Shown: positions 26,832 through 32,008 of the stretch, piece by piece
Layout of the letters: the number at the start of each line of letters is the position of its first letter
Numbering within the stretch: position 1 is the stretch's first letter
Assembly (NCBI GenBank): GCA_016765495.1
Contig: JAESPV010000095.1
Location: 62,001-126,000 of the forward strand
Reading direction: 5' to 3'
Length of the DNA: 64,000 nucleotides
Source: Desulfocapsa sp.
GTDB lineage: Bacteria; Desulfobacterota; Desulfobulbia; Desulfobulbales; Desulfocapsaceae
Notes under the pieces: generated by a model
What the model was told of the DNA's origin: nothing
Seen by the model: the letters and a program-made list of their open reading frames with translations, nothing else
Database searches by the model: none
Translations under genes and position numbers: made by a program

Positions 26832-27713
26832 ATGAATTTTCAGGACGTTATCTCTCAACTCAACCAGTACTGGGCTGACCAGGGCTGCGTTATTCAGCAA
26901 CCCTACGACATGGAAGTGGGAGCAGGAACATTTCATCCGGCCACCCTCCTCCGTTCCCTTGGCCCAGAGCCATGGAAAGCCGCATACGTCCAGCCATCAC
27001 GACGTCCCACCGATGGTCGTTACGGGAACAACCCCAATCGCCTCCAGCACTATTACCAGTATCAGGTTGTCTTGAAACCGTCTCCAATTGACGTTCAGGA
27101 ACTCTACCTTGGAAGCCTGAAAAAATTTGGCCTGGATCTGCTTGAGCACGATATTCGTTTCGTTGAAGATGACTGGGAATCTCCAACTCTTGGCGCGTGG
27201 GGACTGGGCTGGGAAGTATGGCTTGACGGTATGGAAATTACCCAATTCACCTATTTCCAACAGGCAGGCTCCATCGACCTCTTTCCCACCACGGTTGAAA
27301 TCACCTACGGGCTTGAACGTATTGCCATGTATCTTCAAGGAGTTGATTCAGTGTATGATATCGCTTGGAACGATTCCGTAAGTTACGGAGATATTTTTCA
27401 TCAGGCAGAAGTCGAATTCTCTACATTTAACTTCGAAGAAGCAAATGTTGCGGAACTGATCAACTCATTTAGCACTTACGAAGAGGAAGGCCTTAAACTG
27501 GTGGAGAAAGGATTAATTCTTCCGGCATACGACTACTGTCTGAAATGTTCACATACCTTCAACCTTCTCGATGCCAGAAAAGCAATCAGCGTAGCTGAAC
27601 GAACCAGATACATTGGCCGAATACGAAACATTGCACGAAAAGTAGCAAGCGGATACGTAGAACAACGGAAAGAGCTGGGACATCCTCTCTTGAAAAAAAC
27701 GAAAAAGACATAA
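26832..27713 (+). CDS. glyQ: Glycyl-tRNA synthetase alpha subunit
   Basis: [56 protein letters not shown]-like. Confidence 0.97.
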
Positions 27714-28516: not shown

Positions 28517-29410
28517 ATGGAAAATTTCATCCTCATATTCACCTGCCTTGTTTTTGGCATGTTCCTGCAGCGAAGGGAAGTTTTTGCTGAAAATGCCCCC
28601 CTGACACTGAACCTCTATGTTATCTGGGTGGCACTCCCAGCCCTCGTCCTATCCCAGGTTCCAAGGCTCTCTTTTTCAACAGACCTTGTTGTTCTGCTTT
28701 GGGTTCCCTGGTTTGTGACCGCTTTTGGAGCTCTTCTTGTCTGGTGTGCCAGTAGATTGTTTGGCTGGTCTACTGAGGTAAAGGCTGTACTTCTTCTTAC
28801 TGTACCTCTTGGGAACACATCATTTTTGGGTATTCCCATGATCGATGCTTTTTTCGGTTCTGACATGGTGTCCTATGGGATCATTTATGATCAGTTCGGT
28901 TCATTTCTGGCACTTTCCACTTATGGTTCTCTGATTCTCGCACTGTACAGTAAACAGCAGCAGAGTATGCTAAGTATAATCCGGAAGGTTTTTACATTTC
29001 CGCCTTTTCTGGCTTTGCTTATAGCGGTATCTTTTGCAAAACCTCTGCAGCATCCCGATATTGCGAAGAGTTTCTCAATGATTGGTTCCTCTCTGGTTCC
29101 CGTGGTTATGTTTGCCATCGGACTACAGTTAAAGATCAAACTCGCCCCGGGACAAGCCCAGGCGCTTTTCTATGGCCTCAGTGCAAGACTCCTGATTATT
29201 CCCTTTGTTGTCCTCTTTATCTGTCAATTCATGGGAATTGATTCCGATGCATCCCGTATCGCAATTTTTGAAGCTGGTATGCCTCCAATGGTTACCGCCG
29301 GTGCCATGGCAATGAGTGCCGGTTTGGCGCCAAGGCTAGCTGCTGCTTTAGTTGGCTGGGGAATTCTTGTTTCCTTTGCTACTCTGTCTCTGCTTGCCCT
29401 CTTTTTATAG
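28517..29410 (+). CDS. AEC (auxin efflux carrier) family transporter
   Basis: Ten-TM pattern; LLTVPLGNTSFLGIPMIDAFFG, FEAGMPPMVTAGAMA. Confidence 0.85.
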   Translation: MENFILIFTCLVFGMFLQRREVFAENAPLTLNLYVIWVALPALVLSQVPRLSFSTDLVVLLWVPWFVTAFGALLVWCASRLFGWSTEVKAVLLLTVPLGNTSFLGIPMIDAFFGSDMVSYGIIYDQFGSFLALSTYGSLILALYSKQQQSMLSIIRKVFTFPPFLALLIAVSFAKPLQHPDIAKSFSMIGSSLVPVVMFAIGLQLKIKLAPGQAQALFYGLSARLLIIPFVVLFICQFMGIDSDASRIAIFEAGMPPMVTAGAMAMSAGLAPRLAAALVGWGILVSFATLSLLALFL

Positions 29411-29640: not shown

Positions 29641-31434
29641 ATGCCAGACACCATTGCTGCTTCACCAGCACATACTTTTCATATTCCTGTTATGGGAACG
29701 GGATTCACCATAGACACCCCATTAAGGGTAGCCAGATACGGTATTTCTTCATCCATCTCCATTGTGGATGATATATTAATCGAGCAGATACGAAAGTATC
29801 ACTGTGAAAAGGAAAATGAACCCTACGTAGAAATTGCCAAGGGTGACGATTCCCGTGCACTCCGGATTACAGCGTACCTGAATCTTGTTGATCGTCTGGT
29901 GGCCAGGCAGGTTGATGCATTACAGAATTCACCTTTTGACAACGGTAGCGAGATAACAAAATACTATGAAATGCTTCCAGATCATGCACCTGTGAAAAAG
30001 ACTTATCTGCAAATGCTGGCATTACCTGATGGTTCCGAAAAAAAATCAACCCAGGATCTGCTCCGCAGCCAGGCTGTTCCTGGGAGTATCGACGTGAATA
30101 TCATGACCAAGCTTGATCGGGATCAGTACAAAAAGGGAGAAATGCTGCCGCCTATATATGCTGATGCCATGAGTGCTCTTCGTGGCTTTGCAGAAAGTAC
30201 TCTTTCTGCTTCTATCGTGTTTTCCGCCGGGATTAATAAACGCCTTTATCGTTACATGACTGAGTTTAAAGACTTTTTCCCGGACAATAATGGCAAGATA
30301 AAGAAAAAAATTATCCTGAAGGTGAGTGATCATCGGTCAGCTGAAATTCAGGGACGATTCCTGGCCAAATTGGGCCTATGGGTTTCAGAATTTCGCATAG
30401 AATCAGGGTTGAACTGCGGTGGGCATACCTTTCCTTCCAAGGGGTTTCTAATGGGTGTGGTTTTGGAGGAATTTAAGCGAAAAAAGAATGAACTTCGTGA
30501 AAAACTTACTCCCATGTATGCCAAGGCTCTTTCTGCAAAGCAAGAATTTGCTGATACGCTTCCAGATAATTTTAAAGTTACGGTACAGGGTGGCGTGGGA
30601 ACCGCCGCTGAACATGATTTTTTAAGGAACTATTATGGTGTAGACAGTGTCGGCTGGGGTACTCCGTTTTTACTTGTCCCGGAAGCGGTACTTATGGATG
30701 CCGTGAATATTAAACGCCTTATGGAAGCCACGGGTGACGATGTTTTTCTCAGCGACGCATCACCTCTTGGAGTACCCTTCTGGAACATGCGCACATCCAC
30801 CAGCGAGGATTTGCGTCGCAGGCGGATAAAAGAAGGTAACCCCGGATCGTCGTGCCCCAAAGGGTTTGTCGGCTTTAATACAGAATTTACCAAGAGGCCG
30901 ATATGTTTGGCATCTCGTGCGTATATTAATAAGAAATTAGAGCTTCTCCCAAAAGAAGATCATTCTCCTGAAGCTTATGAAATAATCAAAGAAAGAATAC
31001 TCGCTAAGTCATGTGTTTGTCATGAACTTGGTGGGAACGCAACAGTACCGCTGGGTATTGATCCTGATGCTGCGGCTACTGTTTGTTGCGGCCCGGGAAT
31101 AGTTGATTTTTCAAAAATTGCCACGCTCCAGGAAATGGTTGGTCACATTTACGGACGTCTTTCATTAATTACATCGAAGGACCGGCCTCATATGTTTGTG
31201 AAAGAGCTTAGTCTTTATGTTGATTATCTCCGTAAAGAAATAGATAATTTTCCGCTGGGACTTAGCGTTAATAGTGCTTCTTTTCTAGGAGGGATGAGGG
31301 AAAACCTCCTTAAAGGTATCGAATACTATCAAACACTTTCAGGTGAACTTGTCGAAGATTCGCGGGAGAAGTTTTTGGCGGGATTACAAGAAATGAAGGC
31401 AACACTTGAGCCACTCATTCTCGAAAAAGCTTAA
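29641..31434 (+). CDS. Uncharacterised Cys-rich 597-aa protein, possibly TIM-barrel-like
   Basis: Long ORF with good codon structure; VTVQGGVGTAAEHDFLRNYYGVDSVGWGTPFLLVPEAV plus C clusters (NCGGHT, SCPKG, PICLAS, SCVCHELGG, VCCGPG). Confidence 0.7.
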   Translation: MPDTIAASPAHTFHIPVMGTGFTIDTPLRVARYGISSSISIVDDILIEQIRKYHCEKENEPYVEIAKGDDSRALRITAYLNLVDRLVARQVDALQNSPFDNGSEITKYYEMLPDHAPVKKTYLQMLALPDGSEKKSTQDLLRSQAVPGSIDVNIMTKLDRDQYKKGEMLPPIYADAMSALRGFAESTLSASIVFSAGINKRLYRYMTEFKDFFPDNNGKIKKKIILKVSDHRSAEIQGRFLAKLGLWVSEFRIESGLNCGGHTFPSKGFLMGVVLEEFKRKKNELREKLTPMYAKALSAKQEFADTLPDNFKVTVQGGVGTAAEHDFLRNYYGVDSVGWGTPFLLVPEAVLMDAVNIKRLMEATGDDVFLSDASPLGVPFWNMRTSTSEDLRRRRIKEGNPGSSCPKGFVGFNTEFTKRPICLASRAYINKKLELLPKEDHSPEAYEIIKERILAKSCVCHELGGNATVPLGIDPDAAATVCCGPGIVDFSKIATLQEMVGHIYGRLSLITSKDRPHMFVKELSLYVDYLRKEIDNFPLGLSVNSASFLGGMRENLLKGIEYYQTLSGELVEDSREKFLAGLQEMKATLEPLILEKA

Positions 31435-31444
31435 ATGCAAGCTC

Positions 31445-32008
31445 TTACTTTTCCCTTTTAACCCATACTTTTTCTGTTCTGGAAACTGTTTCCCGAATAA
31501 CAGGCCTTTTCTTGTATAAGGAAAGACCCTGCAGGAAATAACGGAGGAACTGGTCACCGCATTCTTTGTAATGTTTGTGACCTTTTTTTCTGAAAAACGA
31601 TGACAATTCTGATTTGGAAATTTCCATTCCCGAAAGCTTGAATACCTCCAGCATATCCCTTTCCTGATAGATCAGGGCTATACGAATTTTTCGTAATACA
31701 TCATTGTTGCTGAGAGCTTCGGGTGCTGGTACCGAAGGTTTATTTAAGGATCCACGGTAAAAAATAATCAAACCATCGAGGAATGTATTCAGCAGGGATT
31801 GAGAGCAAAGAACAAATCCCTGCTCATCCTCTTTTTTAAGTAAGGTATATAGTTTGATATCCTGTGACTCCTGTTTCTGAGCCTGGAATATCTGTACCAT
31901 TTCCTTGTCTTTTAGATCAAGGCTGTAGCGAATTTTTCGGAGTATGTCGTTGGCAAGCAATGGAATACACAAAAGTTGAAGGAATTTTGAGAAGCAGCTG
32001 ACAGTCAC
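31445..32008 (-). CDS. DUF1456 (YehS-like) family protein with two internal repeats
   Basis: Repeats ANDILRKIRYSLDLKDKEMVQIF and NNDVLRKIRIALIYQERDMLEVF. Confidence 0.8.
   Translation of the reverse strand: MTVSCFSKFLQLLCIPLLANDILRKIRYSLDLKDKEMVQIFQAQKQESQDIKLYTLLKKEDEQGFVLCSQSLLNTFLDGLIIFYRGSLNKPSVPAPEALSNNDVLRKIRIALIYQERDMLEVFKLSGMEISKSELSSFFRKKGHKHYKECGDQFLRYFLQGLSLYKKRPVIRETVSRTEKVWVKREK

Follow-up and report, generated by a model that had tools for sequence, protein, structure and literature searches.

A cysteine-rich 597-residue protein from Desulfocapsa belongs to a widespread family of predicted FMN/[4Fe-4S] oxidoreductases with FabX-like architecture

We analysed an open reading frame (ORF) from Desulfocapsa sp. 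within a window of 64 kb, the whole stretch of DNA under study. Translation of positions 29641-31434 of the forward strand gives a single ATG-started frame of 597 aa, which is far beyond chance. The gene stands alone, as the initial annotation had described, between an AEC-type transporter ORF and a convergent ORF.

28517-29410, + strand: upstream ORF, 297 aa, AEC-type transporter (named by inspection)
29641-31434, + strand: coding sequence, 597 aa, predicted FMN/[4Fe-4S] oxidoreductase of the NMO/FabK/FabX superfamily (alignment, AlphaFold, Foldseek and profile comparison)
31445-32008, - strand: convergent downstream ORF, 187 aa, unnamed (neighbourhood comparison)

The AEC-type ORF ends 230 bp before the 597-aa gene and is conserved upstream at loci L001, L002 and L007, but not in every relative. 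In most of the Desulfocapsa loci whose sequence reaches that place, the 187-aa ORF adjoins the family gene, at 69-95% identity. Promoter and terminator scans returned counts expected by chance, and the 18 near-matches to FNR boxes in the window, against 13.8 expected, are likewise attributable to chance. Elsewhere in the window, glyQ (glycyl-tRNA synthetase alpha, 26832-27713) has no glyS directly after it, and a match to PF02092 (glyS) was located on a different contig of this genome (G000:C7).

Searches of the Pfam, NCBIfam, PHROGs and PDB sequence libraries with the 597-aa protein gave no relevant match. PF03060, the Pfam nitronate monooxygenase (NMO) model, matched none of 21 family members at E up to 10, and the window protein had no NCBIfam match, TIGR03151 (FabK) included, nor did the 21 members have a relevant one. 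The NCBIfam model for PfaD-type enoyl reductases was likewise unmatched, and inspection recognised no PKS neighbours. Apolipoprotein-like matches were rejected, as they involve the helical tail and resemble coiled-coil chance. No model in the searched libraries covers this highly conserved family of about 600 aa, and its superfamily kinship is visible only through profile-profile and fold comparison, not through PF03060.

Scanning named genomes recovered 19 relatives, and their conservation establishes the long, well-formed frame as a real gene. They span Desulfocapsa, other Desulfobulbales, Planctomycetota, Pontibacter, Sinomicrobium, Fluviicola and Neomarinimicrobiota; the protein had been called an orphan, a description that must be withdrawn given homologues in several phyla. 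A 21-row alignment, with 43-91% identity over the full length, contains about 90 invariant columns. Within the genus Desulfocapsa the gene is present in 13 of 23 genomes, although in G014 it is divided into two pieces that overlap; the rest of the order seldom carries it. One metagenome-assembled genome carries a split copy (L018, 7899-9796, a record shared with L034 and L035) as ORFs of 346 and 285 aa, which is either a pseudogene or an assembly error. Among sampled Bacteroidota, 146 of 398 genomes carry the gene; three of that phylum (G098, G509 and G652) have two family matches each, with two full-length places for G098 and G509. In a tree, the Desulfobulbales sequences cluster with one from Planctomycetota, separate from most Bacteroidota. 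No plasmid homologues were found. Thus, the family is widespread and occurs in several phyla.

The structure of the 597-aa protein was predicted by AlphaFold using the 21-row alignment (pLDDT 86.8, pTM 0.89). A Foldseek comparison of this model with the PDB placed Helicobacter pylori FabX first (9lt5, E 4e-9), followed by the DfnA enoyl reductase domain, FabK and nitronate monooxygenases; each of these hits had a probability of 1.0 and belongs to the NMO/FabK/FabX superfamily. Given the large inserts, it is unsurprising that the TM-scores were modest, at 0.39 for the query and 0.60 for the target. A fragment comprising residues 143-512, lacking the N-terminus, gave a weaker model (pLDDT 79), and its probability-1.0 matches were NMO/FabK-type structures only. 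FabX was not among these, so the link to FabX specifically rests on the full model and the profiles.

Profile comparison led to the same superfamily. Classical NMO proteins, collected by a PF03060 search of sampled Desulfobacterota genomes, aligned with their catalytic GGH on the NCGGH of the window protein and their FMN-phosphate loop on its QGG loop, and the GGH ending at His262 aligned with GGH in both the NMO and FabX-like sets. Comparison with FabX-like proteins raised the probability to 97-98, with the best values at 97.9-98.1. With a 61-member profile the values were 96.7 for FabX-like proteins, 96.1 for a short Desulfobacterota type (L062-type), 79.7 for NMO and 69.4 for a Bacteroidota type (L179-type); 31 unrelated control families reached at most 1.5, and these controls weigh more than the profile E-values, which apply to single comparisons. 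In Desulfobacterota, NMO-like domains also occur within very long open frames, possibly large synthases, of about 2500-2800 aa (L063, with additional places in G058 and G082).

Membership of the NMO/FabK/FabX superfamily, with FabX as the nearest fold, is therefore almost certain, where previously no named family had been assignable. The fold assignment, a predicted FMN-type TIM barrel, is well supported, and the aligned motifs make FMN a highly probable cofactor. Every motif quoted in the initial annotation is present in the translation, and its comparison of the GGVGT...GWGTPF stretch to a barrel phosphate/flavin site was apt, since GGVGT falls on the FMN-phosphate loop. The features of the protein are as follows.

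29665-29769, + strand: residues 9-43 (HTFHIPVMGTGFTIDTP...), N-terminal barrel strand and first helix (alignment); M18-G19 corresponds by eye to GGMG of FabX-like proteins
29776-30081, + strand: residues 46-147, predicted helical (AlphaFold), making the stretch from the first strand to the VNIM strand about 60 residues longer than in FabX (spacing by inspection)
30097-30099, + strand: N153 in DVNIM, aligned with the FMN-contacting Asn of FabX (N99)
30400-30426, + strand: E254...C259-G260-G261-H262, containing the superfamily's catalytic GGH (profile alignment, 61-member alignment)
30586-30594, + strand: Q316-G317-G318, FMN-phosphate loop, AGG[IV] in FabX/FabK/NMO (profile alignment)
30652-30669, + strand: GWGTPF, residues 338-343, aligned with Q-M-[GA]-T-R-F of FabX-like proteins
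30853-30855, + strand: C405 (CPKGFV), predicted Fe-S ligand (profile alignment)
30904-30906, + strand: C422 (ICLAS), predicted Fe-S ligand (profile alignment)
31012-31020, + strand: C458-V-C460, predicted Fe-S ligands, matched by CIC/CLC in the short FabX-like relatives (profile alignment)
31084-31086, + strand: C482, fifth invariant Cys of the C-terminal part (61-member alignment)
31177-31431, + strand: helical C-terminal tail, residues 513-597 (85 residues), no FabX counterpart (AlphaFold, Foldseek)

The N-terminal strand stretch used alone gave no significant profile match. Eight cysteines are present in the protein (55, 259, 405, 422, 458, 460, 482 and 483). All but C55 and C483 are invariant, so that each of the 61 homologues has C259, C405, C422, C458, C460 and C482. 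Likewise invariant in all 61 are N153, E254, G260, G261, H262, the QGG loop (Q316, G317 and G318), G338 and F343. E254 falls at about the position of FabX E175, and C259, adjoining the catalytic GGH, is specific to this long family.

FabX is an FMN/[4Fe-4S] acyl-ACP dehydrogenase/isomerase of described structure and mechanism. Its cluster is held by C300, C304, C308 and C320 within a C-terminal subdomain, located where FabK has its NAD(P)H motif, while His182, N99, E175, Q240 and T243 function in catalysis and with FMN; a [4Fe-4S] domain is absent from the other family members characterised so far (PMC8626469). In our alignment A2, the L062-type proteins have the first, third and fourth FabX cysteines and an extra one two residues past the last (CIC). 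Their cysteine set reads C-KGY, C.A and CIC, and that of the L179-type reads NCEGLGY, C and CLC. The profile alignment places C405, C422, C458 and C460 on the four L062-type cysteines, with limited local confidence in this region. The earlier guess of metal-binding cysteines thereby gains definition, with four of the six invariant residues as predicted ligands, and the protein probably carries a [4Fe-4S] cluster. Proteins of the unnamed L179 type (L179-L186; 420-460 aa, with NCEGLGY / CLC / CWTCG cysteines) occur in about 84 Bacteroidota genomes.

We surveyed the genomic context of 49 homologue loci, nearly all outside Desulfobulbales, naming neighbours first by inspection. No single fixed operon surrounds the family gene, but low-oxygen genes recur. 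A nosZ-nosB-like-nosL-nosD-nosF-nosY cluster lies immediately upstream at two loci (L141 and L147), and nos genes are nearby at three more (L160, L161 and L168). ScdA/RIC is found near the gene at L160, L165, L168 and L169, Rrf2 at L165, L166 and L169, cbb3 oxidase genes at L161 and L170, and NadA at several loci; in Fluviicola (L012/G098), NrdG and an NrdD match adjoin it. Pfam confirmed NosL, NosD, ScdA, a radical SAM protein, Rrf2, COX1-FixO (CcoN-FixO), NadA and CtaA among the neighbours. A recurrent neighbour (L144 and relatives) considered as NrdD was rejected, being an ATP-cone/PRK protein by Pfam. Upstream of the family gene at the 49 loci, FNR-type boxes were not enriched. The Bacteroidota neighbours do hint at function, although the initial annotation saw no such hint in neighbouring operon genes. 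In 18 of the 66 Bacteroidota genomes with both genes, nosZ lies at most 20 kb from the family gene (0.66 expected, with a P value that ignores relatedness). Such nos clusters have been described in Flavobacterium, with no mention of the family gene in the accessible part of that paper (PMC9697520).

The distribution across Bacteroidota gave a further comparison. A FabX-type protein is present in none of the 146 family-carrying genomes and in 88 others (p 4e-21), a mutual exclusion confounded by phylogeny, as the 88 genomes look like one main lineage. After their removal, co-occurrence with nosZ (p 0.056, on a slightly smaller sample of approximated membership) and with NrdD (p 0.060) was not significant, and the link to anaerobic ribonucleotide reductase is weak. 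The family gene stands alongside FabK/NMO-type genes in 28 genomes. A link to FabA/FabZ loss within Desulfocapsa was rejected, since PF07977 proteins occur in 23 of 23 genomes, with or without the family gene; the family gene thus need not be the sole route there.

The low-oxygen neighbours in many bacteria suggest that this may be an oxygen-independent lipid enzyme. In full, we propose, at even confidence, a low-oxygen FMN/Fe-S oxidoreductase, a long and divergent member of the NMO/FabK/FabX superfamily, that would most likely act on acyl thioesters in the manner of FabX and of its homologue UfaA of Neisseria gonorrhoeae (NGO1024). For the window enzyme we infer the cofactors, substrate, direction and electron partner. 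The TIM barrel would hold FMN through N153, E254, Q316-G318 and G338-F343, with His262 as active-site base. The C-terminal subdomain would carry [4Fe-4S] on C405, C422, C458 and C460, with C482 a possible alternative ligand, and would stand in for the NAD(P)H-binding part of FabK as in FabX, so that FMN would exchange electrons with a partner via the cluster. Dehydrogenation/isomerisation of an acyl thioester, or the reverse, could then proceed independently of oxygen and, like that of FabX/UfaA, yield unsaturated fatty acids when oxygen-dependent desaturation fails. Since identity to any studied enzyme is about 15-25%, the substrate is not readable from identity; an acyl substrate is plausible at slightly under even confidence, and anaerobic unsaturated fatty-acid synthesis proper is a tentative and rather unlikely assignment.

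Other readings keep the barrel and differ in chemistry. Nitronate monooxygenases belong to the same superfamily, and the linkage to nosZ-L-D-F-Y, RIC and Rrf2 genes would suit an enzyme of the same fold and cofactors whose substrate, such as a nitronate or nitro compound, belongs to the metabolism of nitrogen oxides or nitrosative stress, and which protects N2O-reducing or NO-exposed cells. This is improbable, however: no such neighbours occur at the Desulfocapsa loci, many nosZ genomes lack the family gene, the Fe-S-like cysteine set favours FabX over NMO, and nitronate oxidation by NMO consumes O2. It is also doubtful, although conceivable, that the protein is an FMN reductase or dehydrogenase of another low-oxygen metabolite, from a cofactor, quinone or heme pathway, exchanging electrons through the cluster with ferredoxin or a membrane partner. 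The large family-specific insert and tail do suggest a different substrate, and NadA, NadB, a HemN-like radical SAM protein and CtaA are neighbours in single genomes, but they occur sporadically, without conservation from one lineage to another. That the cysteines of an FMN barrel bind zinc or form disulfides in a structural role only is very unlikely; their spacing is unlike that of FabX, yet six do not vary across phyla and match, in the alignments, the part of FabX-like proteins that holds the cluster.

If the acyl-thioester enzyme is FabX/UfaA-like and anaerobic, it could explain membrane fluidity without oxygen in N2O-reducing facultative Bacteroidota and would enlarge the [4Fe-4S] branch within the FabK superfamily. 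We suggest only speculatively that an uncatalogued family, found in more than one third of sampled Bacteroidota species, equips bacteria otherwise reliant on oxygen-requiring desaturation to make unsaturated fatty acids without oxygen, or to perform some other acyl redox step, through a new cysteine arrangement at the cluster. Either way, proteins without a family gain a placement and testable residues, which concerns those 146 of 398 Bacteroidota genomes and several phyla.

The closest known enzymes compare with this family as follows. FabK, NMO (PF03060) and DfnA-like PKS-type enoyl reductases share the FMN barrel and the catalytic His motif but have no [4Fe-4S] domain (PMC8626469), and the window family matches neither PF03060 nor TIGR03151. 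The short FabX-like proteins, represented in Desulfobacterota by the L062/L075 type and in Bacteroidota by the L179 type, share the C / C / CxC cysteine set, but they are 354-460 aa long, lack the long insert and tail, and are recovered by PF03060 or FabX-like profiles. For UfaA, the reported need for the gonococcal FabX homologue in anaerobic unsaturated fatty-acid synthesis, as cited in PMC11300592, fits the low-oxygen context. H. pylori FabX (HP0773; PDB 9lt5, 7e1q) shares the predicted FMN TIM barrel, the GGH motif, the N/E/Gly FMN contacts and a C-terminal cysteine subdomain at the same place. It is shorter, at 363 aa, with about 17% identity in the Foldseek alignment, and lacks the long helical insert, the C-terminal tail and the cysteine beside the catalytic GGH. 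Its CX3CX3CX11C spacing differs from that of the window protein, yet C405, C422, C458 and C460 lie in the same region. The window protein is not filed as FabX because of this spacing and because its identity falls below the homologue threshold of at least 50% (PMC8626469). Thus, it resembles FabX in architecture and differs in about 60 additional N-terminal residues, the cysteine spacing and an 85-residue helical tail.
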